Assembly (NCBI GenBank): GCA_036496425.1
Contig: DASXLG010000100.1
Span: forward strand, 1 to 41,237
Origin: Terriglobia bacterium
GTDB lineage: Bacteria; Acidobacteriota; Terriglobia; 20CM-2-55-15
Length of the DNA stretch: 41,237 bases
Direction of reading: 5' to 3'
The notes beneath the pieces were generated by a model. It had not been told where the DNA came from. It did not search any database and saw only the letters and a list, made by a program, of their open reading frames with translations. This document shows positions 18,388 through 39,874 of this stretch, piece after piece. The position numbers were made by a program, and so were the translations under genes. How positions within the stretch are numbered: the first letter of the stretch is position 1; each line of letters starts with the position of its first letter.

Positions 18388-18457
18388 CCATCCTGCCTGT
18401 TGACGGGACAACCCAGCGTGTCATGTGTGGAGGGGCATAATACCACCGCCGGGTCAT

Positions 18458-21709: not shown

Positions 21710-21745
21710 ACCGACTCTCCGTCTGCCCAAAGCGGACACACGACG

Positions 21746-22792
21746 TTATTCGGCCAAGGCACGGGGATAACTAAGTGTTACGGGCAGTCCCGTGATAATG
21801 AACGCACCCCAGGGTTCGGTATCTCCTATTGGGCTGATATCCGAAACTGCACCGCTCAATCCCGGGATGAACGCATCACCTGATTCCAGCCGTACCGATG
21901 CCGGCGTCAATCGCATCGTCTGCTCCTCAAACGCGCGATCGAGGAACGATACCACGAGTCGATCTGCATACCGCAGGCCAAGCAAAGGATGAGACTGAGC
22001 AGTTATGACATGCGTTGCGGCGGAATACACGGCGGAGGCCGGCATTGGCGGAGCTGCGCGGCTGATGATCCGGAGCGGCGGGCCCGTCGAGCCCGTCATC
22101 ACTTCAAGCGCGCCGTCTTCCGTCCAGGTACCGGAAGCGCGCGATTTCCTGTATCCCCACCCGACAAGCCATTCGCCGAGCAGTGATGCCGCACTATCGG
22201 TGTATGCGGCGAGGACCAGGGTAAAATCGCGGGCTCGCCCAGCTTGCTCATAACAGCAAGGAACCGTCACGATGATCTCATTGTAGGTCCCGACCATGCG
22301 CGAATTATTCTCGCTGGTCTTGCGGCCCATCGCAGCCGCCCAATGTGCGCCGCGAACAGCGCCCTCGGCCGCCATCAGGCCTGCTCCGGCAACGGACCCG
22401 GCCACTGCGCCAGCTGCGGCGCCCCACCACCAGCCTAACGGGCCAAGACCGATTCCCAGGGTCCCGCCGGCGGCCGCTCCCGCGGCGCCGCCAAGTCCTG
22501 CTCCCAACACCGCACCTGCGCTGCCGCCGACTCCGAGTCCGGCGGAACTGCCTGCGATCTCCCATAAGTCATGTGCGTCGAGTCCGCCCACCTGAATCAA
22601 ACCGTTTTGAACGCGCCAGATTTCCAGAATGATGGGATGGCGGCCTTGCGGGACCTGCGGAAGGCGGGGCAACGAGAGCGGAGGGCTCTGTGGCAGGCAC
22701 TGCTGAAGCTGATGAGAATCGACCAGCAGAGGACAGACCAGCGAATCCAGCCGGGCAGTACTGTAAGTCGGAGGCCGCGGAAGCGCTGTCAC
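21746..22792 (-). CDS. ADC-like protein with a glycine-rich hydrophobic insert
   Basis: A 348-residue protein. The C-terminal part has ADC-family features: E172 in GTYNEIIVTVP, a YTDS strand and GEWLVGWGYRK with K216 in the position of the ADC Schiff-base lysine (the usual PKK reads RKS). Between the first strands and this core lies a 65-residue stretch (about 80-145) made almost only of Gly, Ala, Leu and Val with GxxxG repeats (GLGVGGSAGAVLGAGLGG and onward), like a glycine-zipper membrane hairpin. Such an insert is unusual and suggests membrane or lipid-surface attachment. The start is GTG at 22792, overlapping the stop of the upstream reductase-like gene by 4 nt (GTGA), so the two are translationally coupled. 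Substrate is unknown. Confidence 0.7.
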   Translation of the reverse strand: MTALPRPPTYSTARLDSLVCPLLVDSHQLQQCLPQSPPLSLPRLPQVPQGRHPIILEIWRVQNGLIQVGGLDAHDLWEIAGSSAGLGVGGSAGAVLGAGLGGAAGAAAGGTLGIGLGPLGWWWGAAAGAVAGSVAGAGLMAAEGAVRGAHWAAAMGRKTSENNSRMVGTYNEIIVTVPCCYEQAGRARDFTLVLAAYTDSAASLLGEWLVGWGYRKSRASGTWTEDGALEVMTGSTGPPLRIISRAAPPMPASAVYSAATHVITAQSHPLLGLRYADRLVVSFLDRAFEEQTMRLTPASVRLESGDAFIPGLSGAVSDISPIGDTEPWGAFIITGLPVTLSYPRALAE

Positions 22793-23838
22793 AGGTCTTC
22801 GCGCATCGCGCCGTCGAATGACAGTGCGAAATCCGGTCCGTAGATCCTGGAGGGCGTGTGAAAACCCGGTTTCAATTCACCAGCCAAGCATCTTTCGGCA
22901 ATCGCGACTGCGCTCAGCGCGGTAAACCAATACACGTCACCGGTCTGCAACCGCGATCTCGCCGATCCTCCGCAGCCGTCGAACGCTTCGACGACCAGCG
23001 CGCCCCAGCCCTGATTTCTCTCAGGAGGCGAAGGATCAGGGGCAAGCCAATCCAATTGCGCCTTAATCAGACCTTGGATTGCCGGCGTGGAAATCAGCCA
23101 ACCCCAATACTGATTGGCCGTGATCGCAGACCATATCGGGAGGGTTGCGCACAGGTAAGTCTCGACGTCCGGAATGCCTGTACTGAAGTAAGCCGAGGAG
23201 ACGTCGGCGAGACTTACCGCGAGACTCATCTGGGGGCCCTGACCATAATCGAACTGGTGTACGAGAGAACCCGCAGCGACGCGCGCCAGAATGCCCCGGC
23301 GTCGAACGAGTACTCCCTGGCCATTCATCCCGATGCAGGTTTTCAACGAACCGCGCGAGGATGGCTGAGATTTATGGAATCCCAGCTTCAACGCAGTCGC
23401 GCCGGGCAGGCGGCGCGCCACGTGCGCCGCCAGGCAATCGGACGCAACGACTTCAAAGCCGACCGCCGGCATCAACATCACGCCGCGGCGCGCGGCTGTA
23501 TCGTCGTGTGCCGCCGCCTGTTCGATGACTTCAGGTTCTCCTGTAATGTCGAGATAGTGCGTCCCTGTGGAAAGACAAGCATCTATCAGAGCCGATGCCG
23601 TGGTCGAAAAAGGACCTGCAGCGTTGAGCAGGACAGGAGCGGAGGCGGTCATCGCACGAAGACTAGCCGGCTCGTCCACCCGTGCGATCTTCCATTCGAG
23701 ATCGTTCGACGACGCCATGAATTCCACAGCCTGCCGATCCCGGCCGGCGATCAAGGGCCTCAATCCCCGGGCGAGCGCCCTTCGCACGATCAATTGACCG
23801 GAATACCCGGTGGCGCCGTAAATCGCAAGAGTGGACAT
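22789..23838 (-). CDS. Saccharopine-dehydrogenase/trans-acting-enoyl-reductase-like protein
   Basis: A 349-residue NAD(P)-binding protein. The Rossmann start is canonical (LAIYGATGYSGQLIVRRAL, then IAGRD), followed by VLLNAAGPFSTTASALIDACLSTGTHYLDITGE, the characteristic block of the saccharopine-dehydrogenase-like/TER group. It is somewhat shorter than mycobacterial trans-acting enoyl reductases, which work on polyketide-type lipids. Residues after about 170 are less conserved. It starts 12 nt after the receptor gene and overlaps the next gene by 4 nt, so it is a core cluster member. Likely role: reduction of a C=C or C=N bond in a lipid or related intermediate, using NADPH (inferred from the family). 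Confidence 0.85.
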   Translation of the reverse strand: MSTLAIYGATGYSGQLIVRRALARGLRPLIAGRDRQAVEFMASSNDLEWKIARVDEPASLRAMTASAPVLLNAAGPFSTTASALIDACLSTGTHYLDITGEPEVIEQAAAHDDTAARRGVMLMPAVGFEVVASDCLAAHVARRLPGATALKLGFHKSQPSSRGSLKTCIGMNGQGVLVRRRGILARVAAGSLVHQFDYGQGPQMSLAVSLADVSSAYFSTGIPDVETYLCATLPIWSAITANQYWGWLISTPAIQGLIKAQLDWLAPDPSPPERNQGWGALVVEAFDGCGGSARSRLQTGDVYWFTALSAVAIAERCLAGELKPGFHTPSRIYGPDFALSFDGAMREDL

Positions 23839-23850
23839 CTTCTGCCCGGC

Positions 23851-26800
23851 TCAGAATCCCAACCGCAAAGCGAAGCTGATGTACCGCGCAGGATAAGCGG
23901 ACGCAAACGCAAGCGGTTGGCTGAGCTGTGAGATGGAAGTTGGAGCAAAGCCTGTGGCAGTGTATGGACCGTTCAGCAGATTTCCACCATTCGGAAGAGT
24001 GAAATTGGGATCAGCCGGAACGATGTTGTTGACCGCAGCAAAGTTCGTCCGGTTGAGCAGATTCTGAAATTGCGCGATGAGTTCCAACTTCCGTCCCCTT
24101 TCTCCATTGAAGTACAGGGATTTCGCAACTCTCAAGTCAACAGTCTTGTAGGAATCGCCTCGCCCCTCATTCCGGGGTTCATTCCATGGCCGCGCTTCGC
24201 TGGTATGTCCGATCGTCCCGTTGCCCGACAAGCCTCCCAGACCGGGTGCCAGAAGAGTGAATGGAACTCCGGACCTCAGGACAACGATCGGCGAAATAGA
24301 AATGCCGGCCAGAACCTTGGATTGAGAGGGAGTCATGTAGACCGCGTTTGCGACGAAATTGTGCGTCACGTTAAAATCCGAAACAGACCAGTCTCTCCTC
24401 AACTGGTCGGGACGAAACGGGACGCTCAGATTACTGAAATCGCTTGTATTGTCTTCTGCGCGGCTGAGCGTGTAATTGGCGTTGAACTGCAAACCATGGC
24501 TGAAGCGTTTGCTCAATGAAGACGTGAGTCCGTGGTACACGCCGCTGCCGACAGGCGACCAGACGTCGTTGACGAAAACCAGCGAATTCGGCACACCGGC
24601 TGTTGTTCCAGGCTGGGGACCATAGCATGGCCCAACGAACGGATCGATCACCGCCGTGAATTGCGCAGGGTTCACGAAGTTACACGGAGCTTCCTGGTAA
24701 TTGCCGGCGGTTACCTGCTGGATGTGAACGCTTCGATAGTAGCTGTATCCGAGCTCGATCGACAGGTTCGGAGCGATTTCGCGCGCGATGCTTGTGCTCG
24801 CCTGGACGGTGTATTGCGGTTTGAAACCCGGATCCAATGTTGAAAACACGCTTCCAAATGCCGTCGGACCCGGAGGGTTTATCGCCCAGCCTATGGACGC
24901 GAGGTCGGCGGGACTGAGTGCGGGATTCGGATCAGGCCCTGTCGCTTTTGACCTGGCGACCGCCCAGGCAGCGAAGATGGAAGGAAACGGCGGCGACGGG
25001 AGGCTGGCCGATAATGCGCCCTGGTTGATATATTTCCCGCTGGTGCCAAGGGTATTCACGTAGAAGGGCACCATGAAGAGAACCGGAGCAACGAACAGCC
25101 CCCCACCCGCGCGGACGACGGTTTTTCCTGTGCCCGCCGGATCCCATGCAAGGCCTGCACGCGGCGAAACATAGACGCTGTGCGGCACCGGCGCAGGCGC
25201 GGCGTCGTAGTCCAGCCGCGCTCCGTAGTTAAATGTCAGCTTTGGAGAAATTTTCCACGTGTCCTGCGCGTAAACGCCGAGATGGTGGTCCCAGCCTTTC
25301 CATTGAGTATTCGAAGAGGGACTGGCCTGAATCAAAGAGAGCGGTGTGCCGGCAAGGAAGGACTGCACCGCCGTCAAATTCGTCGATGATGGCCCGCCCG
25401 CTGGATAACCCTGGCTCAGGTTGAAAGCGGCGAGATTTGCCTGCACCGCCTGAGGCAAAAGCGCAATCAGGGGGATAGCACCATCCGCGAAACTCCACTG
25501 GCCGCCAAACCAGACGTTTTCGGAAACGTTGTAATGGTCGGGCTGATATGAGCCGCCAAATTTAAAGCTGTGGGCCTTGCGCAGCAAAACAGCATTGTCG
25601 TCGAATTGAAACCGCTTCACGTTCGCACCGTACGGCAATGAAAACGGATTCCCCAGAACAATCGAATTCGCGGTCAGAAGGTCGATTTCCGCCCGCTCCG
25701 GATAGGGAGTGCCGGCTGTGGCAAGATCTTGCGGCACGGCTTGCACGCGAAGAACGTTGACGAACTTCGGACTGAAAGAGTGGGTCCAGGCGGACGTCAC
25801 CGTATAGTCCGTTCGCAGATCGAACGTGGAGGTCGGCGGCTGCGGAACCACGCTATCCGTCTCGTGCATCAATGAAAAACGCGCCATGATGCTGTCACGG
25901 ACAGACGGCTGATAATCGACCCGGGAAACCCAATTGTTGTAGCGGCCTCGCGGCGTGTTGAATCCGGGCGTACCGCGAACCGCAGCAAGTGTCGAGATAA
26001 TTCCGTCAAATGTCCCCTGGTTTGGAAGAACAAGAGCGCTCAGGATCGGGTCTGCGAGCGGCGCCCCTAACACGGGTGAGGCGAGAAGAGTAGCGCCCAA
26101 GGGCGCTGCCGCGGTGCCGGAATTCGCCAACTGGGTCAAATAACAAAGCTGGCTGACCTGTGCGGGCTGCCCGGGACACTTGCCGCCACTGTAACCATTG
26201 GTTTGAGCGCTTACAGACTGAAACTCCGCTGTGCCTGAGTAATTCTGCGAAGTCGCCGAATCGAGCTTCTGATTTTCGTAGGCGGTGAAAAAGAACAGCT
26301 TGTCGTGCCTGATGGGTCCGCCAAGCGTGAAGCCGGAAATAGCGCTTTGTTCGAAAAGGTTCGAACCGGGATTGATCAGCCGGTTGAAATAGTTAACGGA
26401 ATCGGTATTTCTGTTGTGGAAGTAGGAGTAAACGCTGCCGTGCAGTGTGTTTGTCCCGCTCCGCGTCACGACATTGATGGCCGTGCCCACCGTATTTCCG
26501 AATTCCGCCGCGAAAGAACTTCGGTTTACCTGAAACTCCTGCACTGAATCCAAGGGCACGTTGCGCACTCGCGGCGCACCCGAGCCGTAATCGTTCTCGC
26601 CGCCATCAATCGTAATCAGGTTGTTACGACCGTTGCTGCCGCCTATGGAGAATCCGGAAGCGAGATATCCGGTACCGACGCTGGGATCCTGTATTGAAGG
26701 CGTATTCGAACTTGCCACGCCCGGAACGGTATAAATAAGGTCCGTGAAGCGGCGGTCGATATTTGGAAGATTCTCGACTTGAAGCTGGTTGACGGTGTTT

Positions 26801-27207
26801 GCCTGCTGTGTTTGCTCAACTTCGATCAGAGGCGCCTGATCCCTAACCTCGACCTCCTGATCGAGCACGCCAAGGACAAGATGGACGTTATATGAAACAG
26901 GTTCGCCCACCGTGAGCACAACGTTATCCGCAACCGCTCTGCTGAAACCCGCGGCTTGTACGGTGACGCGATAGGTGCCCGGAGCGAGCGCCGGCACCTG
27001 ATAATAGCCGGCCTCTTCCGACAGCGCGGTCCTGACCAGACCCGTAGACGTATTGGTCACGGTAACGGCCGCGCCCGGAACCACTGCGCCATTCGGATCG
27101 AGGATGCTTCCTTTCAGTACGGCGCTGTCATAACTCACCTGGGCATAGCTCAGGACCGAAACAAACAGGACGATGCCGGAAAGCATCGCGGCCCTATGGA
27201 TGGTCAT
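23851..27207 (-). CDS. TonB-dependent receptor with carboxypeptidase-regulatory N-domain
   Basis: An 1118-residue outer-membrane protein of the acidobacterial Oar-like type. A signal peptide (cut near SYAQ) is followed by a carboxypeptidase-regulatory-like Ig fold (KGSILDPNGAVVPGAAVTV to GTYRVTVQAAGF). A plug domain (VENLPNIDRRFTDLIYTVPGV, GGSNGRNNLITIDGG, FAAEFGNTVGTAINVVTRSGTN) and a long beta-barrel follow, ending in ...YISFALRLGF with the terminal Phe required for barrel assembly. ATG at 27207 is chosen over the open frame to 27321 because it yields the signal peptide and has AGGAG 10 nt upstream. It overlaps the flavoprotein gene by 14 nt. It should take up or export a large ligand; its place inside the lipid cluster suggests the cluster substrate or product crosses the outer membrane here. 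Confidence 0.93.
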   Translation of the reverse strand: MTIHRAAMLSGIVLFVSVLSYAQVSYDSAVLKGSILDPNGAVVPGAAVTVTNTSTGLVRTALSEEAGYYQVPALAPGTYRVTVQAAGFSRAVADNVVLTVGEPVSYNVHLVLGVLDQEVEVRDQAPLIEVEQTQQANTVNQLQVENLPNIDRRFTDLIYTVPGVASSNTPSIQDPSVGTGYLASGFSIGGSNGRNNLITIDGGENDYGSGAPRVRNVPLDSVQEFQVNRSSFAAEFGNTVGTAINVVTRSGTNTLHGSVYSYFHNRNTDSVNYFNRLINPGSNLFEQSAISGFTLGGPIRHDKLFFFTAYENQKLDSATSQNYSGTAEFQSVSAQTNGYSGGKCPGQPAQVSQLCYLTQLANSGTAAAPLGATLLASPVLGAPLADPILSALVLPNQGTFDGIISTLAAVRGTPGFNTPRGRYNNWVSRVDYQPSVRDSIMARFSLMHETDSVVPQPPTSTFDLRTDYTVTSAWTHSFSPKFVNVLRVQAVPQDLATAGTPYPERAEIDLLTANSIVLGNPFSLPYGANVKRFQFDDNAVLLRKAHSFKFGGSYQPDHYNVSENVWFGGQWSFADGAIPLIALLPQAVQANLAAFNLSQGYPAGGPSSTNLTAVQSFLAGTPLSLIQASPSSNTQWKGWDHHLGVYAQDTWKISPKLTFNYGARLDYDAAPAPVPHSVYVSPRAGLAWDPAGTGKTVVRAGGGLFVAPVLFMVPFYVNTLGTSGKYINQGALSASLPSPPFPSIFAAWAVARSKATGPDPNPALSPADLASIGWAINPPGPTAFGSVFSTLDPGFKPQYTVQASTSIAREIAPNLSIELGYSYYRSVHIQQVTAGNYQEAPCNFVNPAQFTAVIDPFVGPCYGPQPGTTAGVPNSLVFVNDVWSPVGSGVYHGLTSSLSKRFSHGLQFNANYTLSRAEDNTSDFSNLSVPFRPDQLRRDWSVSDFNVTHNFVANAVYMTPSQSKVLAGISISPIVVLRSGVPFTLLAPGLGGLSGNGTIGHTSEARPWNEPRNEGRGDSYKTVDLRVAKSLYFNGERGRKLELIAQFQNLLNRTNFAAVNNIVPADPNFTLPNGGNLLNGPYTATGFAPTSISQLSQPLAFASAYPARYISFALRLGF

Positions 27208-29344
27208 AACCGATGATCTCCTTGAGCAATGGCTTTTGAGAAATCGCGTGTGCTGCCAGAAGACCGGAAATGACGGCGGATTCGATACAGCCGGAGTCGA
27301 GTCCCGTCGCCGTCCAATCACCGGCTATCGTCAGATTGTCAAAGGCCATATCCAGGGGAGACACGCGGTAAACAATGCTGCCGGGCAGCGATTGTACATA
27401 ACGATCCGTCGGATTGACGTTCGCTTTCCAGAATTGCGAATCGAAGCGGCATTGGGATGCTTCTGCGCTCGATTGATCTTCGCCTGCCAGTAAATCCCAG
27501 CGAAACGCTCCATCTCCGCCGGCTGCCCGGGGCCACAGCGCACGGACATCGTTGTTCAGGAAACGAATGGCATTGTTGCGGACGGTTTCGTCTTGCTGCA
27601 GGCAAAAGTCCTGGGTGACGCTGGAGGAATCCGGAGCCAGGTCGGGCAGCACGCTGCAGAAGTATGCAATGGACTTGACCGCGATGCGCCAGCTTTCCTC
27701 CGGGATGAGATGGCTCATGTCCGCCCAGGTATCGAATGGATGGACAAAGCCCGACACATTCGTTTCGCTGCCTTTCCACCCAAGCTCGCTCGAATCCTTC
27801 TGCATCCAGAGCTGAAACGCCTGCGTCGGCACGGTCTTGACTTCGCGAACCATATCGCGCCAGCGTGGCTCGCGCTCGATGAGTTCAGCAGCCACGCCGG
27901 GCAGAGCCCCAATACCCAAGCCGAGGATAACGAAATCGAAATCGCGTGCAACCGACAACCTCTTGTTGCCCGCACGGCCCTTTTCCCAGATCGCCTCAAA
28001 GGAGCGGCCGTCGCGGGCAAGCGAACGGCCGCCGACCAGTTGAGCGTAATCGGGTTGAATGGGCCAGCTTGGGAGGTTGTGAATATCCACCAGGGGTTGA
28101 TATTCACCGCCGCCCTTGATACGGGCCTGCACATCAAAATCGAGTGTCTTCACGAAAGGAGTCTCGCCGGGTTCGCTGGGACCAAGTCCTATATGCGTCA
28201 GCCGATGGAAGAACTCAAAGCGCACACCTCTTTGCTTCAGCACCTGGTAGAGCGGCGCGAAAACGACATCGCCCATACCCGCACTCATGCGCCAGAAGAG
28301 CGAACCGCGGTATGTGAAGAACATCCGCATTGCTCCGCGCAAGGCTACGCCCGCCGCCAGGCGCGGACGATGGACATCGCCGTCTTCGTATGCGAAAACC
28401 AGGTCGTAAATCCCCCGCATGAATCCCGAATCAAGTGACGGCTCGGACGCGCCGTTCATCCGGAGCCACTCTCGCCAGTCGTAATCGTTGATCGCGTCGA
28501 AACCGCGCGGATCGACAGCCAGTCCACAACGGATCGAACCGCGAACGATAGCGAGAATGAGATCGATGACTTCCCAGACCCGGCGCAGTTCGGGACTCGC
28601 CTCGACCATGGAAGCAAGCTGGCGCCGGGCCGCGACCGCCAACTGTTCGATGATCTGCATCGGCGCGGAGACGGCATCTCCAAAGAAGCGCGGGAAAAGA
28701 GTATCGATCGCTTCGCGCAGGAAATCGCTTGCCTCAATGAGAGCGGCGGCCGTCGCGAGCTGGGAATACCGCAGCATTGTCGCAACGCCAGGTGTGGTTC
28801 CGCCGCCGCTGTTGGGGCGTGGTCCGGAGCCGGTATCTTCCGTTCCCTGTTCGGAAGATTCCATCGCGGCTGCCGACCGCAGCAACTCACCGATCAGCAT
28901 CACGGATTGGCGCAGGTAAGCAGCGACAGTAAACGGGTCACCCGTCGCCGGGTCACCAGGCTCACCCTGACCCGGTGGAAAATGCGCCAGCCAGAACGCC
29001 CATCCATCCCCCGTCCGGTTTGCAACGCCAACGTTGGGGGCCGGCTTGAAGGCATCCCGCCAATCCGCAAAACGGCAATTCGGAAACGCCTGCCGCCGCT
29101 CGGCGTAGCATTCGCGCATCAACCGGAAGGCATTCTCGTAGAAGCCCATCCACAAATGAAGACCGTGTTCCTCCACGCGATCCGCGACGCCGCGCCCGGA
29201 AGCGCCTTTTCCGCCAAGACGCCATCCCATTTGATAAACCGTGACCTCATATTGACCGTCATGTTCGGGACGTGTGAGTTCGAAGGCCGCCGTCAGAGCG
29301 GCACAACCGCCGCCAATCACGGCTACACGAATGGGTGTTTTCAT
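27194..29344 (-). CDS. CrtI/phytoene-desaturase-like FAD-dependent oxidoreductase
   Basis: A 716-residue flavoprotein, first gene of the operon. It has an N-terminal FAD-binding Rossmann motif (VAVIGGGCAALTAAFEL, 8-23), then YQMGWRLGGKGASG and EEHGLHLWMGFYENAFRLM, the FAD-contact blocks of the phytoene-desaturase/amine-oxidase group. The C-terminal signature NLTIAGDWTATGLDSGCIESAVISGLLAA closes the FAD site. It is longer than CrtI-type enzymes (about 500) because of helical inserts in the middle, one of them low-complexity (near residue 165). Known relatives desaturate or oxidise isoprenoids. With the prenyl synthase in the same operon, an isoprenoid substrate is plausible but unproven. No good Shine-Dalgarno sequence precedes ATG 29344; TACAAT lies nine bases upstream. 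Confidence 0.85.
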   Translation of the reverse strand: MKTPIRVAVIGGGCAALTAAFELTRPEHDGQYEVTVYQMGWRLGGKGASGRGVADRVEEHGLHLWMGFYENAFRLMRECYAERRQAFPNCRFADWRDAFKPAPNVGVANRTGDGWAFWLAHFPPGQGEPGDPATGDPFTVAAYLRQSVMLIGELLRSAAAMESSEQGTEDTGSGPRPNSGGGTTPGVATMLRYSQLATAAALIEASDFLREAIDTLFPRFFGDAVSAPMQIIEQLAVAARRQLASMVEASPELRRVWEVIDLILAIVRGSIRCGLAVDPRGFDAINDYDWREWLRMNGASEPSLDSGFMRGIYDLVFAYEDGDVHRPRLAAGVALRGAMRMFFTYRGSLFWRMSAGMGDVVFAPLYQVLKQRGVRFEFFHRLTHIGLGPSEPGETPFVKTLDFDVQARIKGGGEYQPLVDIHNLPSWPIQPDYAQLVGGRSLARDGRSFEAIWEKGRAGNKRLSVARDFDFVILGLGIGALPGVAAELIEREPRWRDMVREVKTVPTQAFQLWMQKDSSELGWKGSETNVSGFVHPFDTWADMSHLIPEESWRIAVKSIAYFCSVLPDLAPDSSSVTQDFCLQQDETVRNNAIRFLNNDVRALWPRAAGGDGAFRWDLLAGEDQSSAEASQCRFDSQFWKANVNPTDRYVQSLPGSIVYRVSPLDMAFDNLTIAGDWTATGLDSGCIESAVISGLLAAHAISQKPLLKEIIGYDHP

Positions 29345-29432
29345 CGGCGGGCCATTGTACTGAAGCAAGCCTTTATAAGTCTACCGATTGAAAAGGTATT
29401 GAAAGCGAGGTAGGGCTAGGAGAGCATACGAC
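29345..29432. promoter_or_regulatory. Divergent promoter region between cluster operon and kinase
   Basis: Only 88 nt separate the two divergent starts, so both promoters share this space. On the minus strand TACAAT (29359-29354) lies nine bases before ATG 29344, a possible -10 for the whole 16-kb operon. On the plus strand GGAGAG is the ribosome-binding site for the kinase GTG at 29433. Shared space makes coordinated control of kinase and operon possible. Confidence 0.4.
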
Positions 29433-31700
29433 GTGCACGTCGGACAGGTCGTTTCCCATTACCGCGTTTTGCAGAAAGTCGGCGAGGGCGGCCTCGGAGA
29501 AGTCTTCCTCGCCCAGGACCTGATCCTCAATCGCCGGGTGGCGCTCAAAGTGCTCGCCACCAAGCAACCCGACGCGCGAAAACAGATACTCGAAGAGGCG
29601 CGGTCCGCCGCGTCCATCGATCATCCCCACGCCTGCAAAATCTATGAAACCGGTGACTGCGAGGGCGCGCCTTTCATCGTGATGGAGTTTCTCGAGGGTG
29701 AAACTCTTTCACAACGCCTGGAATCCGGTCCCCTACCGCTGAAGGAAGCCGTGACGATAGCAATCGAGATTACCGAGGCGCTTGCGGAAGCTCACGAAAA
29801 GCAGATCATTCACTGCGATCTAAAACCCACCAACATCATGATCACACTCAGCGGCCACGCGAAGCTGATGGACTTCGGTCTGGCCAGAATGCTTAAACAG
29901 AGCCCCCCGTCTGGTGACGATTCGACACATCAGGATGAGGTGTCGAAACCCGGCATCGCCGGAACTCCGGCATATATGGCACCAGAACAGATTCGCGGTG
30001 AAAAACTCGATGCCCGCTCCGACATATTTTCGCTTGGAATCGTTTTATATGAGATGCTCGCCGGCGTACATCCCTTTCGGCGAACTACACACGCGGCAAC
30101 AATGGCAGCAATTCTTCATGAAGATGCGGTTCCTCTGAACCAGGCTGCTCCTGCAATTCCCGAATCCCTTTCACGGGTTATCGAGCGAAGTCTTGTCAAA
30201 TCTCCTGCCGGAAGGTACGCGTCGGCACGTGATTTATGGGCGGCATTGACCGGGCTGCGCAGCGACGATGCCGCACGGCTACAGGCTGCTTCACCGTCGG
30301 CCGCAATCGCCATTCTGCCCTTCTCGGACCTGAGTCCAGCGCACGACCAGGAATATTTCTGCGACGGGCTGGCCGAAGAACTGATCTCGGCGATCGGTCA
30401 GTCGAGCCCAATCCGCGTTGCCTCACGGACGGCATCGTTTCGATACAAGGGAGCCACTCTCGATCTGCGGGAGATCGGACGTACCCTGAATGTGACGTCT
30501 ATCCTGGAAGGAAGCGTTCGAAAGGCGGGAGACCGGCTGCGCATCGTCGTCAAGCTGGTCGACATTGAAACCGGTTATCCGATATGGTCCGAACGCTACG
30601 ATCGGTTACTGAACGACATTTTCGAAATCCAGGATGAAATCGCCCGCTCGATTGCCGGGAAGCTGCAAGGAACATTCGCTGCGTCGATGACTGCGCCGGC
30701 CGCTCCGACTCCGCCTCGCAACGTCCGGGCCTACGAGTCCTATCTGAAAGGCCGGTACTTCTGGAATAAGCGCACAGAGGATGACCTGCGCCGGAGCGCG
30801 GAGTATTTCGAGAGCGCGATCGCCGAGGATGCCAATGAAGCCGTTGCGCATGCCGGGCTGGCTGATGTTTACGTGACGCTCAGTCTGTACGGCGCCGTAC
30901 GGCCTCTCGACTTTTTGCCGCTTGCGAGAAACTCCGCAGACCGCGCACTTGAACTGAAACCCGATCTGCCCGAAGCATTGACCTCACGAGCCTGCCTGAG
31001 AGCCGTCTTCGACTGGGATTGGAATTCCGCCGCCAGAGAGTTCGAAACTGCGATTCGCTTAAACCCGAATTACGCCCAGGCCCGTCAATGGTACGCGATG
31101 AATTGTCTGTCTCCCCTGGGCGCATTTACGCGAGCCAGAGAGGAGCTGAAGATAGCGTCCGAGACCGATCCCGTATCTCTGGCGATCGCATCTTCCGTTG
31201 GCGTACTGGCTTTTTTTGAGCGTGACTACGAACGGGCGATCGCGGACTTTCGCGCGGTACTGCAGATGGATGAAGCATTCTACCTGGCACATTACTTTCT
31301 CGGCCAGATCTATGCGGCACAAGGTCTATATCCCGACGCACTCGGCGAACTGGAACGCGCGGTCGCAATCAGCCGGGGATCGTCGGAAAGTATCTCTGCG
31401 CTCGGATACGCTCAAGCCAGAGCTGGACAGACGGACAATGCCCGCCGTCAGCTTCAAGAACTGTCACAGCGAAAAACCGGGAGATACGTTTCGCCGGTAT
31501 TGGTGGCTCAGGTCAATACCGGCCTGAAAGAATATGACGACGCCATGACGAACATCGAAGAAGCGTTCCAGGCGCGGTCCACCGATCTCGTCTGGTTGAA
31601 ATTGCGGCCGGCCTTCGATGCTGTCCGCTCGAACGATCGCGTGACTCGCCTTCTCACAAGCCTTGGGTTAGGGAGTTCTCTGTCCAGCCGTCTTGTCTGA
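29433..31700 (+). CDS. Ser/Thr protein kinase with TolB-N-like and TPR domains
   Basis: A 755-residue protein. The kinase domain (about 10-270) has the glycine loop GEGGLGEV, K39 in VALKV, HCD at 127-129 with LKPTN, DFG at 147-149 and APE at 183-185. The arginine of the usual HRD motif is replaced by Cys, so it is a non-RD kinase. The next part (about 287-410) is the TolB-N-like module seen with cyclases and CadC-like proteins (AILPFSDLSPAHDQEYFCDGLAEEL, SVRKAGDRLRIVVKLVD). TPR repeats then run to the C-terminus. No transmembrane helix was seen. Start GTG at 29433 with GGAGAG 8 nt upstream. Its 3' end overlaps the convergent gene at 31668 by 33 nt. Located between the two ADC modules, it is a candidate regulator of both. 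Confidence 0.93.
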   Translation: MHVGQVVSHYRVLQKVGEGGLGEVFLAQDLILNRRVALKVLATKQPDARKQILEEARSAASIDHPHACKIYETGDCEGAPFIVMEFLEGETLSQRLESGPLPLKEAVTIAIEITEALAEAHEKQIIHCDLKPTNIMITLSGHAKLMDFGLARMLKQSPPSGDDSTHQDEVSKPGIAGTPAYMAPEQIRGEKLDARSDIFSLGIVLYEMLAGVHPFRRTTHAATMAAILHEDAVPLNQAAPAIPESLSRVIERSLVKSPAGRYASARDLWAALTGLRSDDAARLQAASPSAAIAILPFSDLSPAHDQEYFCDGLAEELISAIGQSSPIRVASRTASFRYKGATLDLREIGRTLNVTSILEGSVRKAGDRLRIVVKLVDIETGYPIWSERYDRLLNDIFEIQDEIARSIAGKLQGTFAASMTAPAAPTPPRNVRAYESYLKGRYFWNKRTEDDLRRSAEYFESAIAEDANEAVAHAGLADVYVTLSLYGAVRPLDFLPLARNSADRALELKPDLPEALTSRACLRAVFDWDWNSAAREFETAIRLNPNYAQARQWYAMNCLSPLGAFTRAREELKIASETDPVSLAIASSVGVLAFFERDYERAIADFRAVLQMDEAFYLAHYFLGQIYAAQGLYPDALGELERAVAISRGSSESISALGYAQARAGQTDNARRQLQELSQRKTGRYVSPVLVAQVNTGLKEYDDAMTNIEEAFQARSTDLVWLKLRPAFDAVRSNDRVTRLLTSLGLGSSLSSRLV

Positions 31701-32600
31701 ACGCATCAATTGCTGCAGCTCAGCCGGTGTCTTGATGGACGGTGTCGGGCCCGGCTCACAGGTTTGCCAATGCCCGGGGCCGTATATTCCGCAGGGCGGC
31801 AAAATGACACATTGATGCTTTCCGTCGACGCAGCCGCAGTAGATGACGTGGTCCGGTTTCTGAGCATCCCGGGCAAGTACATTCAATAGAGCTTCGCGCT
31901 GCATGATGTAGCGTTCGCGGACCAGATTGACACCGTCTGCGACAAGGTTTGGGCTCATCGCGACAGGTTGTATTGCCGAAATCGGGCGGCCGAACAGCTC
32001 CTTGAACGAGCCAAAAAATGCGCGATCATCCAGTTCCTCGTTCTGAAGAATCATGATTGCCTTAGAAAGATTTTCCGCGACTTTTTTCAGCAGGCTATGG
32101 TTGACATGCGGCGAATGAGGCAGACAACCGTCCAGCGGTGTCGGATCTCCTTCAATTTTCATGATACTGATAGACGCAAAGTCAGCTGGTAGAGCTTTCA
32201 GGCTTTTGGTGATGTCTTCAAAATTGTCAGGTTGGAATTGCGGACTTCGTAACGCCAACCAGTCTGTTTCAACCTTCTGCCGGTCAACTCCCAGTGGCAG
32301 AAGCTTCTCCATAAGGGACGGCAGTCGAGACAGGGGCGAACATTCAAGCACAGCGGTCGTTTCGAGATCGTGAACAAGTGTGTCGATCAATGCCCTCAGG
32401 ATGTCAGGAGTCATATTCCCCGACTCCAGCTGCGAGGTTGCGGCGAGAGCCGGGTCCCATTTCAACAGTTGACCGGCGATATATTGCAATTCGTTGACAA
32501 CATACTGATCCGGGGGGATGTCGGCCGTAGCTCTGCGTATCCCGCGATCGAGTTCTGCACGGCGGGTTAACCAGCGATTCACGAGTTCGGGCTCCTCCAT
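31668..32600 (-). CDS. Cluster protein matching the C-terminal tail of the 1148-residue ADC protein
   Basis: A 310-residue, mostly helical protein of no named family. It starts where the 867-residue ADC protein ends, and in the paralogue at 13150-16596 the corresponding helical tail is fused in one frame. A tail segment there (YLFVNNLLAQRPGSVATRL) resembles LQYIAGQLLKWDPALAATSQ here. The ATG at 32600 lies inside the upstream coding sequence (22-nt overlap) and has no Shine-Dalgarno sequence, so translation must be coupled to the upstream gene, or a frameshift joins the two. A Cys/His cluster near the end (C255, C257, H262, C264, C270, C281) could bind metal. It was probably created by fission or frameshift of a fused ancestor. 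Confidence 0.7.
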   Translation of the reverse strand: MEEPELVNRWLTRRAELDRGIRRATADIPPDQYVVNELQYIAGQLLKWDPALAATSQLESGNMTPDILRALIDTLVHDLETTAVLECSPLSRLPSLMEKLLPLGVDRQKVETDWLALRSPQFQPDNFEDITKSLKALPADFASISIMKIEGDPTPLDGCLPHSPHVNHSLLKKVAENLSKAIMILQNEELDDRAFFGSFKELFGRPISAIQPVAMSPNLVADGVNLVRERYIMQREALLNVLARDAQKPDHVIYCGCVDGKHQCVILPPCGIYGPGHWQTCEPGPTPSIKTPAELQQLMRSDKTAGQRTP

Positions 32601-35182
32601 TCCCGGGACAACAATGTCTCAATAATGAGCTCAGGTCCGAACAGGTTCAGCACGTTTTGTACGTCAGCGCCGACCAGCGGTGTCTTGGCTGTTGTCATCT
32701 GCCAGCGGTTAACGGCTGCGTCGAGCTTTCGAGGATCCCCGGCATCGACCATCTTTGCCGCCTCCGCACCGATTTGCAGTGGTGCCGCGCTGAACTCTGC
32801 AGGAGTGGGTATGGTTGTGAGCGGAATCCATTGGCTCGGTGCACGGTAGACCAGCGGCTGCCCCAGTTTCTCATCGACATTCGCGGCGAACCAGAATGGG
32901 CGGACAGGACGTATCTCATATAAGATTCCGGAACCGTCGCCTTCCAAGCGCCGATGTTCGAGCCCGAGCAGGCTGACGATCGGCAGCGTCGGGAATTCAT
33001 AGATCAGCAGGCGCAAAGGATCTTCAATCTCCTGCACGGTAGGTGTGACGGGAAAACTACGATCCGTTTGAACAATGGATTGATAACAGGCGAGGTCTGG
33101 GTCGGCAACGTCGCGGAACTGCTTCAACGTGAAAAGCGAAATGGGGGCTTGCTGGCACATGATATCCAGCGCAAGTGCCAGCCCGTCATTCAGCTCGTCG
33201 ACTTTGCACTTGGCAAGTTTGCATTTTCGCTCCAGTTCCTTTTTAAAGGTCTCACACCAGAAATAATCGTTGGATGCGTTCGAATCCGACCACGGAGCCT
33301 TGCCGCTATGGATTTCGAGGATGGTCTCTGAAGCGGATTTCTGGCCTTCGTCGACGGCGGGAAGCACTTCTGTCTCCATGCGAAGTAACAGCCGATCGGC
33401 ATCGGGATACACGCCTGTCGATGTCATCCAGGTGTTGCGCTGCGCGTAAGGCAGTTCGAATTGCGCGAGAGTCGTTGGAATCCCGGAAACCTCGGAACGT
33501 GATACCGCTGCGGTGCTACTGTCCATAAAGGTAAAAACCGGTAGCAGTCCCGCGCAATATGTGTACCAACTTCCATTGTCGTGGTATTGCAGCCGCACGG
33601 GAACAAAGATCGCCACTTCGAATTTGGTCCAATCGCCGATGTCATTAGTCTCGGACTGAACAGCGCCAACGCTGATTGCTGCCAGATAAACGTAGGCATA
33701 TGGATTTTCAGGATTTTCTGGCTGTTCTGTCTCTTTGCATGGCCCCGGCCCCACGTCCGGCTTGGAATCGGCGTCGGCCCACAAGGCGAAGCGCATTTTG
33801 GAACCGAACATCGGCGTGTTCAGATATTCGCAAATGAAACTGTTGAGACGGCTTCGATGCGCCAGAAGCGGCAGGGCACGCACGACGACATCGGAAAAAT
33901 GAAACGGACCGACGAGCGTCTCGTTGCCTCCGGCCAGCGTTGTGTTGAATGGAGGGGCCTCGTCCCTCGGCGATTCTCCGGGGAACTGGTTCCCTTGATC
34001 GTCATTCCAGGTATAACTTCGCGCCCTCCACGCCAGGTTCGTCCCGGGTTTGTATTGCATGTCGCCCTGATACCAGAACGGCAGTACCGGTTTCAGCACG
34101 AACAGATCCGCCTCTCCCTTCACTCGGGCGGGAATCCGCTCGTCCACCTGGAGTCCAAGCGTCTCGACGATCGGCAGCATGGGCCAGTCGTACAGTTTGA
34201 CCGAATAACCGCCGCTCAAATCGCCAAACATCATTAACTCCTCGCCCAATCGGCCTCCGGCCGTGATGGACGTGATCTCGATCGGCGCATTGGTGACGGC
34301 TTGAAAGGCGCAACAATCCGGGCTTTCCGACAGCCGGAATTGTTTCAGATTAAGCGTATTCAGCGTGAAGTTTGGACGCAGCGGAAATAACGAACCTGCC
34401 ATGGCGCCAAACATCGAAAGATAATTGTCGCCGCTGGTTGCCTGATGCATCGGGACCACGCCAAATCCGCGGAGCAGTTGAACGATATCCATGCTCATTC
34501 CGGCCATCCCGTTGGCGAGGTTTGCCGCTATCGTCCAGGGATTCAAAGGATTTTGCACGTTGAACGGAAAGCGCAGATTCGCGGCGGGACGTTCGTGTTC
34601 GACCGAAAGGAAGACTTCAGTTTGTGGAGATTGTCCGGTAAAGAACTGGGGAAAGAGCGACGCAGTCATTGTGAGTTCACAGATCGGACCCTGCGGATTT
34701 CCGACCCATGTGCTGGCTGTGGGCGTCGACTTCGCCGGAGATTTTGGCCAGCCGTACACCAGACGTCCCAGGCCAAGCGCGAAGTCATCATCGACGTAAA
34801 TAAAAGGAGTGATCGAGGCATAATCGTAAAAGACCAACCGCCCGTTGATCCGCCGATACCACTGCAGTGGGACGAAAAACGCAACCTCGCGTTCCGCTAT
34901 CCAGCCGACGTTGGCGACATCCACGGACATCGAGCCATAGTCATTTATGAGCAGGAGCACATAGGGGAAAGGCGCCCGAAAATATCCGACTTCCGGCGGC
35001 AAAATGTTCAAGTAGAGGTCGCAAAAATGCTGTAGCGCATTGAGACTCGCCCGGAGAGGAAATACAAGCGAGGTTACGCCGCCGAAGTAAAACGGCGGCT
35101 TAAGTGTTGTCGACACCGTTTTCCAGGGCGGCCACTTGGCCTCGCTGAACGGGGGTAGCGCCCCGTCATTATCAAATGTCAT
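32579..35182 (-). CDS. Second double acetoacetate-decarboxylase-like protein
   Basis: An 867-residue paralogue of the protein at 13150-16596, collinear with its first 870 residues. Unit 1 begins KPPFYFGGVTSLVFPLRA (28) and keeps E99 (EREVAFFVP) and GRLVYGWPK with K147 at the ADC lysine site. Unit 2 begins LVGPFHFSDVVVRALPLLA (423), keeps E522, but has SRSEVSGIPT with Thr where the lysine should be. Both units contain LKQFR...C(A/Y)(F/Y)Q (278; second about 700) and LPFW/RPFW. The same pattern of one intact and one lysine-less unit in both paralogues suggests the difference is functional. It is 36 nt downstream of the small-protein gene and overlaps the tail gene by 22 nt. No signal peptide. 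Confidence 0.75.
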   Translation of the reverse strand: MTFDNDGALPPFSEAKWPPWKTVSTTLKPPFYFGGVTSLVFPLRASLNALQHFCDLYLNILPPEVGYFRAPFPYVLLLINDYGSMSVDVANVGWIAEREVAFFVPLQWYRRINGRLVFYDYASITPFIYVDDDFALGLGRLVYGWPKSPAKSTPTASTWVGNPQGPICELTMTASLFPQFFTGQSPQTEVFLSVEHERPAANLRFPFNVQNPLNPWTIAANLANGMAGMSMDIVQLLRGFGVVPMHQATSGDNYLSMFGAMAGSLFPLRPNFTLNTLNLKQFRLSESPDCCAFQAVTNAPIEITSITAGGRLGEELMMFGDLSGGYSVKLYDWPMLPIVETLGLQVDERIPARVKGEADLFVLKPVLPFWYQGDMQYKPGTNLAWRARSYTWNDDQGNQFPGESPRDEAPPFNTTLAGGNETLVGPFHFSDVVVRALPLLAHRSRLNSFICEYLNTPMFGSKMRFALWADADSKPDVGPGPCKETEQPENPENPYAYVYLAAISVGAVQSETNDIGDWTKFEVAIFVPVRLQYHDNGSWYTYCAGLLPVFTFMDSSTAAVSRSEVSGIPTTLAQFELPYAQRNTWMTSTGVYPDADRLLLRMETEVLPAVDEGQKSASETILEIHSGKAPWSDSNASNDYFWCETFKKELERKCKLAKCKVDELNDGLALALDIMCQQAPISLFTLKQFRDVADPDLACYQSIVQTDRSFPVTPTVQEIEDPLRLLIYEFPTLPIVSLLGLEHRRLEGDGSGILYEIRPVRPFWFAANVDEKLGQPLVYRAPSQWIPLTTIPTPAEFSAAPLQIGAEAAKMVDAGDPRKLDAAVNRWQMTTAKTPLVGADVQNVLNLFGPELIIETLLSREWRSPNS

Positions 35183-35218
35183 GATATCGCTTCGAATTCA
35201 GGAAGGCAGGTCACAACC

Positions 35219-35938
35219 TCAGGAGGTCGATTCGGTCTCTTTGAAGGCCTTATGTAGCTTTTCTATAAGGGACTGTGCGTGACCGTACTTTTTGGGGTCC
35301 CTTTGAGCCGACTTCTGCAGCTCTCCAAAAATTAAATTCCTGCGGTCTTTGTCTTTAGCCATCATTTGCAGCAAGTCCAGGATAAACTCCGCCGTTTCCT
35401 CATCACGCATTTCCGGCCTTGATTCGACCGTGACCGCTACATCCTTGGTGAGAACCCTGACGGTTAGTCTTCCCCTTTTTCTATCGCAATTGTCGAAGAT
35501 ATCGCCGTTATATGTGCCGGTTTTCTGATTAGGCGCCGGCTTTATCTTTACTTTGATCTGTCCATGATGATTCTCGATCTCGGCGTCTAACGTGGTCCCG
35601 AGTTCGTCCCCCAATTTCAGCTTACCCACCCTGAGGTTCGCGTGTCTGGCATCCGGGTCCAGATGTACTCGTACGATTTCCGACGGCCCTTCGAGTGCGA
35701 AACTCATCCAGGACGAATCATGGCACCAGTCATGGCACGGATCACAGGAAGAGTCGGGACACCCTGCACCGTAGTTATATGATGGTGACCATGATGGCGA
35801 AGCGTTAGGAATCGACAGATTGGGGACGAAAGCCATCAGGCTATCGAACCAAAGCCTTCCCAAATGGACCAAAGGATTCGATGGCCAAGTTCCGGTATAT
35901 CCAGCTCCCGAGCCGCAAGACGACCGATAATTACCCAT
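35219..35938 (-). CDS. Small cluster protein with Cys/His cluster, paralogue of 17659-18387
   Basis: A 239-residue protein, first gene of the second module. A hydrophobic/aromatic helix (PLVHLGRLWFDSLMAFVPN) aligns with the Trp-rich helix of the protein at 17659-18387. A beta-rich domain (GPSEIVRVHLDPDARHANL to RGRLTVRVL) aligns with that protein's C-terminal domain, including the TGTYNGDI / AGCYYGSI turn. Two parts differ: a cysteine- and histidine-rich loop (C60, C65, C68, H69, C72, H73) that could bind zinc or iron, and an added basic helical tail (about 175-239). ATG 35938 has GGAGG a few bases upstream, so the start is firm. No family name can be given; the consistent pairing with double-ADC proteins indicates a shared job. 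Confidence 0.7.
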   Translation of the reverse strand: MGNYRSSCGSGAGYTGTWPSNPLVHLGRLWFDSLMAFVPNLSIPNASPSWSPSYNYGAGCPDSSCDPCHDWCHDSSWMSFALEGPSEIVRVHLDPDARHANLRVGKLKLGDELGTTLDAEIENHHGQIKVKIKPAPNQKTGTYNGDIFDNCDRKRGRLTVRVLTKDVAVTVESRPEMRDEETAEFILDLLQMMAKDKDRRNLIFGELQKSAQRDPKKYGHAQSLIEKLHKAFKETESTS

Positions 35939-36041: not shown

Positions 36042-36953
36042 TCAAATCCGCCGCAGAATTTCCAGTACGTCCGAAATCGATTGCCATCGTTCTTCCGGCT
36101 GGCGCGCGAGGGATCTGGCGATGACGTCCTGCAAGGCCGGCGGCGCGGCTCCCGCAGTCATCTCGCGCGCAAGCAAGCCGAAGGCGAAGATGTCGGTGCG
36201 CGCGTCGGTGGGGCGGCCTTCCGTCTGCTCGGGCGCCAGGTAGGCCGGCGTTCCTGCTCCCGACATCCCGAAGTCGAGAACCTTTACCCCGCTTCGCGTC
36301 AGCATGATGTTCTGCGGCTTCAGATCGTGATGAACGATCGCTTGTTGATGAGCGTGTTCGAGCGCTTCGGCGATCTGAATCAGGTAACGGAGCGCGTCGG
36401 TTAGCGGCAGCGGTCCCTGTGCGAGACGATCCGAGAGCGCCTCTCCGACGAGATATTCGAAGACCAGGTAGTGCGTATCCCCGTCGTTGCCGGCATCGTG
36501 CAGGATGCAAATGTGTGGATGACTCATGGCCGCGATCGCGCGGGCTTCCTCCTGGAAGCGGCGGAATCGTTCGGGATCGCCGGCGAGATATGCGGGCAGG
36601 ATCTTGACCGCGACGAGCCGGTTAAGATGGGGATCGACGGAGCAATAGACATCGCCCATGCCCCCACGCCCCGCGAGACCGAGGAGCTGATACCGGCCGA
36701 GCATGCGGCCGGTCAGCAATCCGGCGCCTTCAGCGGCGAGAGATTCGGCCGCAAAGCGCATCGCAGGCTTGTCGAGAAATGTTTCCGCCTCACTGTCGCA
36801 TGCCAACAGCGATTCGACTTCCGAGCGCACGGACTCGTTGCCGGCGCAGGCACGGTCGAGAAACGCCTTGCGTTCTGCCGGCGGCAGCGGCGACGTCTGG
36901 CTATAAATTGTCTGAATCCGCTGCAGGCGTTCCTGTTCCACCTTTGACTCCAT
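36042..36953 (-). CDS. Minimal Ser/Thr protein kinase, short activation loop
   Basis: A 303-residue protein. A helical N-terminus (1-85) of the type found in acidobacterial kinases that follow ECF sigma genes (ERLQRIQTIYSQTSPLPPAERKAFLDRACAG) precedes the kinase domain (about 88-300). The latter has GRGGMGDV, K117, HHD at 208-210 (non-RD), DFG at 227-229 and APE at 240-242. Only 10 residues separate DFG from APE, far shorter than usual, and the C-lobe is also compact. There is no TPR or WD tail. ATG 36953 is chosen; the frame is open to 37226, but the extension is a shadow of the sigma gene. Activity is doubtful, because the substrate-binding activation segment is nearly absent. Confidence 0.85.
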   Translation of the reverse strand: MESKVEQERLQRIQTIYSQTSPLPPAERKAFLDRACAGNESVRSEVESLLACDSEAETFLDKPAMRFAAESLAAEGAGLLTGRMLGRYQLLGLAGRGGMGDVYCSVDPHLNRLVAVKILPAYLAGDPERFRRFQEEARAIAAMSHPHICILHDAGNDGDTHYLVFEYLVGEALSDRLAQGPLPLTDALRYLIQIAEALEHAHQQAIVHHDLKPQNIMLTRSGVKVLDFGMSGAGTPAYLAPEQTEGRPTDARTDIFAFGLLAREMTAGAAPPALQDVIARSLARQPEERWQSISDVLEILRRI

Positions 36954-37524
36954 GCCCAAGTTCCCGAAGCAGCCAGGCCTTCGCGAAATTCCAGTGACGG
37001 CTGACGGTAACCGGCGAGACGCCCAGGGCTTCGGCCGTTTCTTCCACGCTGAAACCTCCGAAGTAGCGCAACTCGACCACGCGCGCCAGCTGCGGATCGG
37101 CGGCTGCCAGGCGCTAGAGCGCCAGGTCGACCTCCAACAACAAGCCCAGACGATCATCGACCGCCGCATACGTGATCTCCGCTTCCTCGAACGCGACGGC
37201 GTGTGCGCCTCCGCCACGCTTGGCATAGCAACGCGAACGGGCGTAATCGACCAGAATCCTTCGCATCAACTGAGCGGAAACGCCGAAGAAATGGCCGCGG
37301 TTCTGCCATTGCACGTTTTTCCAGTCCATCAGCCGGAGGTAGGCTTCGTTTACCAGCGCCGTTGCCTGCAAGGTGTGACCGGGACGCTCGCGCCCCATAT
37401 ATCCGCCGGCCAATCGATACAATTCCCGGTAAACAACAGGAGTCAGCTGCTCCAGCGCGCTTTCGTCACCCTCGCTCCACGCCCGCAGCAGCTTCGTCAG
37501 TTCGCCGGACGATATCTCTGCCAT
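36901..37524 (-). pseudogene. ECF sigma factor interrupted by an in-frame amber codon
   Basis: The first 136 codons encode sigma region 2 and the linker (LTPVVYRELYRLAGGYM, ALVNEAYLRLMDW, MRRILVDYARSR), of the ECF type common in acidobacteria. A TAG at 37114-37116 stops translation inside ...VDLAL-stop-RLAAADPQLARVVELRYFGG. The same frame then continues intact through all of region 4 (FSVEETAEALGVSPVTVSRHWNFAKAWLLREL) to TAG at 36901. The stop sits where relatives often have a Glu codon, so one GAG-to-TAG change would explain it. A -10-like TACAGT lies six bases before ATG 37524. Either the gene is dead, the codon is read through, or it is a sequencing error. It overlaps the downstream kinase by 53 nt. 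Confidence 0.85.
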
Positions 37525-38164: not shown

Positions 38165-39874
38165 TCACTTCGCTGACGTACTCGATTGCGTTTTCTGAAC
38201 GACGTTGCCCAGCGTCCGGTCGAATTCGATATTGTTCTTCTTCAGTGTCATGCCCATCGACCGATCCAGCTCCACCAGCGCTTCGGTAAAGTTCACAAGC
38301 GTCTGCGCCTCGTTGGTCTGAGCCAGCGCAAGGAAGTTCTGATCGTTGATGATGAACTGAATCGTGGATGTCCCGAGATCGAACTTGGCCTGCTCGGCCT
38401 CCAAAGTATCCTGGGCAAGCTCGCGCGCGGTCTTCGCTGTGTCGATCCGCGCTTTATACATTTCGACAGCCATCAGGGAATTACGAACATCGAGGGCAAT
38501 AGCCTGGACCGTGCTGTCCATCTGGTTGCGCGACATGCGCTGATCATTGAGCGCCTTCCCGTAAGCGGCGTTTGCGGCCTTGTTGTCGATCGGTATGACG
38601 ACGGAGATGCCGCCCGAAAACCCAGTGTAGCCGTACGAGAACAACTGCCCCAGGGAACTGAAGGGGCCGCCCGGCACAGGAACAATGAAAGCAGGACTGT
38701 TGAGCAGAAAACCCCGGCGCTGCGCGCCTCCGACGCCATTCTGGTCGAATGACGCCGTTAAATCGATGACCGGCTTTCTCTGGTTGTTCGTGTACGTGAT
38801 TTCGATGTCTTTATTCTTCAGGTCCAATTGCGCCTGGCGGAGTTCCGGCCGGTTCTCCAGGGCGATCCGGACCGCTTCTTCGAGCGTCGGAATCTGAGCG
38901 GCTTCCGGCCGGACCGGCAGATCCTGGGCTTTCAGTTTCATCAGAAACATCGACGGGTCTTTCTCGCTCGACACCAGCGTCTTCAACTGATCTTCCGCGG
39001 TCGTCACGGCGTATCTGGCCTGGACGAGCTGATCGTTGACCGTCGCCACCTGTGCTTTGGTAGGAATGAGATCGACCTGGGCCAGCGTACCAATTTCCAC
39101 CTTTTGCCGGTTCTGGTCGAGCAGCGTTTGCGCCCGGGTGAGCGATTGCTGCGTCAAATCCAGGTTATCGCCCGCGAAAACAAGATTCCAATACGATTTC
39201 TGAGCCTGAACGATCAGGCTGGTGAGCTGGAGCTCGAACGCCGCCTCGGAACTCTTCTCCGTATTCTGCCCTTCCAGCACTTGGCGCAAATTCACAACCC
39301 GGCCGCGGTTTTGCAGAAGATGCTGGCCGACAGTGTAGGTCGCGCGACTCGTATAGGACGGATTGAAGATGGTGCTGCTGCTGTTCGTCAACAGGCGGAC
39401 CATATTCAAGTCGACGCTGACGCTCGTACCCGAGGGAAGTAACTGCGAGACGTTGGCGTCGAGCAGTCCCGTGTTTGTAATTTGCGACATCGCGCCGTAG
39501 AACTGTGACGAACTCAAGGCAACATCCCGCGAAACATTGCTCGTGAGCCTCAGCGACGGCAACAACGCCTGCCAGAAGACGAGAGACTGGTAGTACAAGG
39601 ACCGGGGAGCCATGCGGTCAGCGCGGATATTGAGGTTATTGTCGAGCATCATATTGACGACGTCGTTCATCGTGACCGGCAACTCGCCGGTCCGAAGCAA
39701 CTGCCCCAACTGCCCGCCCGGCGAACTCGCAGCGGCGGGTGCCCCAACTGGTGATGGATCAGGGTGGGCATCATAACGATGCAGAAACTTATCCACCCAG
39801 TTCTCCGATGCCATGCCCGGTTTGGCAACCATCGTGATGAGTAGCAGAGCGATGAATGTCCTGGTGAGCTTCAT
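38165..39874 (-). CDS. TolC-family outer-membrane efflux protein
   Basis: A 569-residue protein with a signal peptide (cut near GMAS). It has the double-repeat structure of outer-membrane factors: two long coiled-coil helical regions (around ASEAAFELQLTSLIVQAQ and VAQARY-like segments in the first half; ENRPELRQAQLDLKNKDIEIT, QAIALDVRNSLMAVEMYKARI and AQDTLEAEQAKFDLGTSTI in the second) with beta-strand pairs between. It should form the trimeric exit duct of a tripartite pump or a type I secretion system. No inner-membrane or periplasmic adaptor genes lie beside it, so partners must be elsewhere. ATG 39874 has GGAG 8 nt upstream. The N-terminal stretch before the first helix (25-60) is Pro/Ala-rich. 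Confidence 0.93.
   Translation of the reverse strand: MKLTRTFIALLLITMVAKPGMASENWVDKFLHRYDAHPDPSPVGAPAAASSPGGQLGQLLRTGELPVTMNDVVNMMLDNNLNIRADRMAPRSLYYQSLVFWQALLPSLRLTSNVSRDVALSSSQFYGAMSQITNTGLLDANVSQLLPSGTSVSVDLNMVRLLTNSSSTIFNPSYTSRATYTVGQHLLQNRGRVVNLRQVLEGQNTEKSSEAAFELQLTSLIVQAQKSYWNLVFAGDNLDLTQQSLTRAQTLLDQNRQKVEIGTLAQVDLIPTKAQVATVNDQLVQARYAVTTAEDQLKTLVSSEKDPSMFLMKLKAQDLPVRPEAAQIPTLEEAVRIALENRPELRQAQLDLKNKDIEITYTNNQRKPVIDLTASFDQNGVGGAQRRGFLLNSPAFIVPVPGGPFSSLGQLFSYGYTGFSGGISVVIPIDNKAANAAYGKALNDQRMSRNQMDSTVQAIALDVRNSLMAVEMYKARIDTAKTARELAQDTLEAEQAKFDLGTSTIQFIINDQNFLALAQTNEAQTLVNFTEALVELDRSMGMTLKKNNIEFDRTLGNVVQKTQSSTSAK

Follow-up and report, generated by a model that had tools for sequence, protein, structure and literature searches.

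Why should a single bacterial contig carry two sets of genes for a small protein and a large protein built from two domains resembling acetoacetate decarboxylase (ADC)? The contig (DASXLG010000100.1, C100) is the window of this study, i.e., the whole stretch of 41,237 nucleotides, and belongs to a Terriglobia bacterium of the phylum Acidobacteriota (assembly GCA_036496425.1), whose genome assembly comprises 6.16 Mb in 407 contigs and is 95.4% complete with 4.2% contamination. The original prediction held that the gene order small protein, double-ADC protein and helical tail at 18387-13150 (copy 1) is repeated at 35938-31668 (copy 2), and that the small protein and the double-ADC protein form a functional unit separable from the prenyl synthase that lies between them in copy 1.

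Two diverged cassettes, each with a small and an ADC-ADC protein

The genes were found at the places predicted:

35219-35938, minus: small protein of copy 2, 239 aa
32579-35182, minus: double-ADC (ADC-ADC) protein of copy 2, 867 aa, with Lys147 in domain 1 and Thr570 in domain 2
34742-34744, minus: codon of Lys147 (copy 2, domain 1), aligned to the lysine of the ADC motif
33473-33475, minus: codon of Thr570 (copy 2, domain 2), where the lysine position is lost
31668-32600, minus: separate tail open reading frame (ORF) of copy 2, 310 aa, with a Cys-rich C-terminus
17659-18411, minus: small protein of copy 1, 250 aa from a TTG start, with an ATG at 18387
16607-17647, minus: polyprenyl (geranylgeranyl-type) diphosphate synthase, copy 1 only
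13150-16596, minus: ADC-ADC protein with fused tail of copy 1, 1148 aa, with Lys140 in domain 1 and Ala563 in domain 2

Both pairs of proteins are paralogous. Pairwise alignment of the two large proteins gave 35.6% identity over 884 aa (E 0) and that of the two small proteins 27.5% identity over 138 aa (E 2e-6), so that significant similarity was obtained for each pair, its lack in either having been named as grounds for abandoning the claim. The global score of the small proteins was 70, compared with a mean of 9.9 and a maximum of 34 among shuffled sequences, and was reached by none of 1000 shuffles; the beta segment alone also scored above all 1000. The two cassettes are real, diverged copies, and because they are so diverged an assembly duplicate is ruled out. 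In copy 2 the small and large genes are 36 bp apart and no prenyl synthase was found there, as predicted, while in copy 1 the gaps between the small protein, synthase and large protein genes are 10-11 bp. The synthase scores 184.5 bits against PF00348 (gathering score 27), and its DDIED and DDLLN motifs align with DDIED and DDVLN of 1wmw, a solved geranylgeranyl synthase.

The tail did not hold up as a conserved third member of the cassette. In copy 1 the large protein carries it as a fusion, and in copy 2 it is an ORF of its own that overlaps the large ORF by 22 bp. The sole link between the tails is a local match of 32 aa (E 7e-4), the score of which was exceeded by none of 500 shuffles (224 of the 500 gave any hit). 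In a comparison over their full length the global score was matched by 450 of 1000 shuffles, and the tails were on this ground not accepted as homologous. The tail ORF of copy 2 begins within the end of the ADC gene (32579-32600), in another frame, at about the point where copy 1 runs into its fused tail.

In each large protein domain 1 gave a match to PF06314, the Pfam family of ADC, with 30.5 bits in copy 2 and 18.6 bits in copy 1, i.e., above and below the gathering score of 29.8 bits, respectively. In a genome-wide search with PF06314 both ADC matches fell inside the window and neither was over the cut-off in that search. Pfam matched nothing in domain 2 itself, but this domain aligns with domain 1 as well as with single ADC proteins, suggesting that the large proteins are ADC-like in both halves. 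In a tree of ADC domains, which is small (13 domains) and has long branches, the first halves of the two copies paired with support of 97/97 and the second halves with 100/100, and all four grouped together with 98/99. As first half pairs with first half and second with second, the tree shows that the predicted ADC-ADC protein is older than the doubling of the cassette, and the simplest reading would be that its architecture arose by an internal duplication. Between the copies the first halves are 41% alike and the second halves 35%. The motif lysine, which we take to be the Schiff-base (catalytic) residue of ADC, is kept in both first halves (K140 in copy 1, K147 in copy 2) and gone from both second halves (A563 and T570, respectively). 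One half of the fused enzyme thus appears to be devoid of the catalytic lysine. If so, the natural joining of one half with the lysine to one without it, retained through a later duplication, would offer a clean case for study of how a dead half persists. A profile of the ADC domains in the tree aligned weakly with the solved ADC structure 4zbo over residues 98-129, including the GFPKK motif. The proteins differ from those of the ADC superfamily (PF06314; PDB 4zbo/4zbt) in having two fused domains of which the second is without lysine, a tail and a small partner protein, and they are not part of a canonical acetone operon. Sequence searches of PDB with the large protein of copy 2 or with a profile of type A ADCs, one of two clades described below, gave no match.

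The small protein of copy 2 seems to consist of an N-terminal helix segment rich in W and F, a Cys-rich linker, a beta segment and a helical C-terminus, judged from its sequence and from a structure model that is weak, with a predicted local distance difference test (pLDDT) score of 44.7. A PDB sequence search with it found no match. Profile searches of other genomes gave two weak matches, in G046 and G262 (E 0.004), which were set aside as probable chance since they align with the helix segment or the N-terminus and not with the beta segment; apart from these the small protein was found neither in the other genomes searched nor on plasmids. The large protein is equally rare. A search with that of copy 2 found it in its own genome only, both among 297 genomes of the phylum and among 11 of the family, and a profile of both large proteins matched in 3 of 396 genomes, the two others carrying single ADCs (these sets, and the 349 genomes of the class, overlap). 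A profile of the ADC domain hit its own genome only among the 349, with all four domain matches there. Scans of genome contigs and viral contigs for a two-domain ADC protein gave pattern matches and no confirmed relative. Since neither protein was found in the other genomes searched, the evidence for their pairing consists of two copies within a single genome.

An island of about 25 kb

The original prediction overlooked that both cassettes and an FAD oxidoreductase gene lie together on one acquired island of about 25 kb. In the window 26.5 kb separate the histidine kinase gene (10158-11627) from the TolC-like gene (38165-39874). Among five congeners, four (G298, G299, G300, and G301) have the two genes on one contig with 1.6-2.1 kb between them, and in these a homologue of the OmpA-like gene (12305-13039) adjoins TolC. 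The fifth (G297) is uninformative as its contig stops after the histidine kinase region. It follows from this spacing that about 25 kb (13040-38164) is extra in the genome of the window. The similarity of both flanks to the genus speaks against contamination as the source of the contig, and gain in this genome would be likelier than loss in four others. The GC content is 58.0% in the island and 57.5% in the flanks. A search for signs of mobility found no tRNA, no Rfam match and no shared word of 10-30 bases between the ends of the island, i.e., no boundary repeat, and no integrase was seen among the genes read. The island and the remaining genes on it are:

13040-38164, no strand: genomic island, about 25 kb, absent between the OmpA-like and TolC-like genes in four congeners
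18458-21739, minus: class III cyclase, AAA ATPase and TPR regulator
21746-22792, minus: third ADC-like protein, single domain, type A clade, with a Gly/Ala-rich N-terminus
22789-23838, minus: saccharopine-dehydrogenase-like NAD(P)-binding protein
23851-27210, minus: outer-membrane TonB-receptor-like protein of Oar type
27194-29368, minus: FAD oxidoreductase resembling HpnE and carotenoid desaturases
29433-31700, plus: Ser/Thr kinase and TPR protein, divergent from the FAD gene
36042-37226, minus: Ser/Thr kinase lying upstream of copy 2, with a true start that is probably close to 36950
37117-37524, minus: ECF sigma factor with an in-frame stop inside

From 29368 to 13150 the order on the minus strand is FAD oxidoreductase, Oar-type receptor, saccharopine-dehydrogenase-like protein, third ADC-like protein, cyclase-ATPase-TPR protein, small protein, synthase and large protein. 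These genes are close-set with gaps of -17 to 12 bp, the exception being 70 bp before the small protein (from the ATG). Copy 2 is a separate unit behind the kinase and the ECF sigma factor genes. The frame of the sigma factor gene continues past its stop codon (37117-37524 and onward), which points to a broken gene or else to a mistake in the assembly.

FAD, ADC and regulator genes at other loci

The best curated match of the FAD protein is HpnE (TIGR03467), the hydroxysqualene dehydroxylase, with 68.3 bits, which is under the equivalog cut-off of 283; it is much longer than HpnE and the carotene desaturases, and a PDB sequence search with it gave no match. The gene is absent from the 10 other genomes of the family. 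Relatives occur in 5 of 297 genomes of the phylum, its own included, and in 11 plasmid records from four genera, of which four records, one per genus, were opened. Together with a locus of genome G356 this gave ten loci for comparison: the window, five from Acidobacteriota (L018, L019, L020, L021, and L028) and four from plasmids (L003-L006). Nine of the ten have an ADC gene or domain beside the FAD relative, or eight of nine without the G356 locus, which was taken in via its ADC and not via the FAD protein. The kinase or cyclase-ATPase-TPR regulator likewise has a homologue at 9/10 loci. Linkage of genes for predicted FAD oxidoreductases, ADCs and such regulators is thereby shown. The ADC proteins of these loci fall into two clades and the window carries both.

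In plasmids of Azospirillum and Catenovulum homologous ADC and FAD/NAD(P)-binding oxidoreductase genes adjoin, and these loci differ from the window in having a single ADC domain, no small protein and no prenyl synthase. In a plasmid of Qingshengfaniella alkalisoli (L005, 11989-14895; WP_240804486.1) the FAD oxidoreductase is fused to an ADC domain, here a single one of the other clade (type A), and genes for a cyclase-ATPase-TPR protein and a Crp/Fnr protein come after the fusion gene. The recurring set, along with this one natural fusion, offers a testable partner and pathway for ADC proteins that are annotated by name only. In the Azospirillum locus (L004) a gene for outer membrane protein transport (13976-15355) is situated between the FAD and ADC genes, which hints at a possibly lipid-like substrate. 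In L019 (12270-18825) three FAD oxidoreductase homologues lie in tandem after ADC and kinase-ATPase-TPR genes, and one FAD match in that genome has an internal stop.

The cyclase-ATPase-TPR protein of the window resembles the TOMM kinase/cyclase fusion (TIGR03903), with cyclase, ATPase and TPR in the same order, and scores 627 bits against it, under the cut-off of 705.75. The match starts from profile position 278, the N-terminal kinase domain is missing, and there are no TOMM genes among the genes of the window that were examined. For the terms and library searched, no published work on the FAD-ADC-regulator set was found.

Possible role of the island and alternatives

The likely role of the island is, we infer, a regulated modification of an isoprenoid or lipid in which a catalytic and a non-catalytic ADC half take part. 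In its full form, where a cassette of the small protein and the ADC-ADC protein was doubled on an acquired island whose products make or remodel an isoprenoid or a similar lipid, we would give this reading an even chance. It is conceivable that the prenyl synthase supplies a chain, that the FAD enzyme oxidises or isomerises it, and that a carbonyl intermediate is bound as an imine by the first ADC half, which carries out decarboxylation, isomerisation or aldol-type chemistry. The second half would be a fixed, non-catalytic partner shaping the dimer, and the small protein would be dedicated to the ADC-ADC protein as its binding partner or scaffold. The two copies of the cassette, duplicated within the island, would be isoforms that differ in substrates or expression, copy 2 possibly responding to the adjacent pair of ECF sigma factor and kinase. 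Chemistry beyond decarboxylation has a precedent among proteins with the ADC fold, as the ADC-like homologue MppR is reported to cyclise a keto acid via its active-site lysine (PMC10367076).

Several observations speak against this reading. The match to the solved ADC structure is weak (E 0.71) and the AlphaFold2 model of the ADC-ADC protein, computed from two rows, has a pLDDT of only 30.6, so the folds rest on sequence. The tails of the two copies do not align end to end. One plasmid locus with an FAD relative (L006) is without ADC and another (L003) is without regulator. Homologues of the synthase and of the saccharopine-dehydrogenase-like gene were found in none of the nine other loci, and for this reason both may be outside the pathway. 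Absence of the synthase from these loci, as from copy 2, fits the predicted separability of the small and ADC-ADC proteins from it; that the two make up a functional unit is suggested by two copies in one genome, and a homologue of the small protein was found in 0/9 of the other loci.

Instead of isozymes, both ADC-ADC proteins and both small proteins could be subunits of one hetero-complex. Canonical ADCs are oligomers, and both copies have been retained with open frames on the same island. The layout nevertheless assigns them to separate transcription units, and a synthase and a fused tail occur in copy 1 alone, which makes a joint complex unlikely. That copy 2 is instead a decaying remnant, its tail split off and diverged past recognition and the adjacent sigma factor broken, would explain why the tail is on a separate ORF without global similarity and why the ECF sigma gene has an in-frame stop. 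This stop could, however, be an assembly error, all three ORFs of copy 2 are open at full length, domain 1 retains its lysine motif and the small gene has a good ribosome-binding site (GGAGG), and decay is therefore distinctly unlikely. The chance is slimmer still that the island serves in signalling or defence, as a module in which the cyclase/kinase-ATPase proteins are central and the oxidoreductase and ADC act as effectors or makers of a small molecule. Such regulators do repeatedly adjoin the FAD gene, and the set is patchy and island-borne, but PADLOC matched generic cyclase and kinase domains only, with none for the FAD, ADC and small proteins, and an outer-membrane receptor and a prenyl synthase are a better fit to metabolism.

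Returning to the modification of isoprenoids or lipids, a broader proposal is tempting, if rather doubtful at present: the HpnE-like FAD oxidoreductase and the ADC-fold enzyme, together with an ATPase-TPR protein gated by a kinase or cyclase, may constitute an unrecognised, horizontally moving and signal-controlled system for modifying isoprenoids or lipids in Acidobacteriota, Pseudomonadota and perhaps Bacteroidota, in which the ADC of the present island would have become an obligate pair of enzyme and pseudo-enzyme with a small partner of its own and a duplicated cassette.

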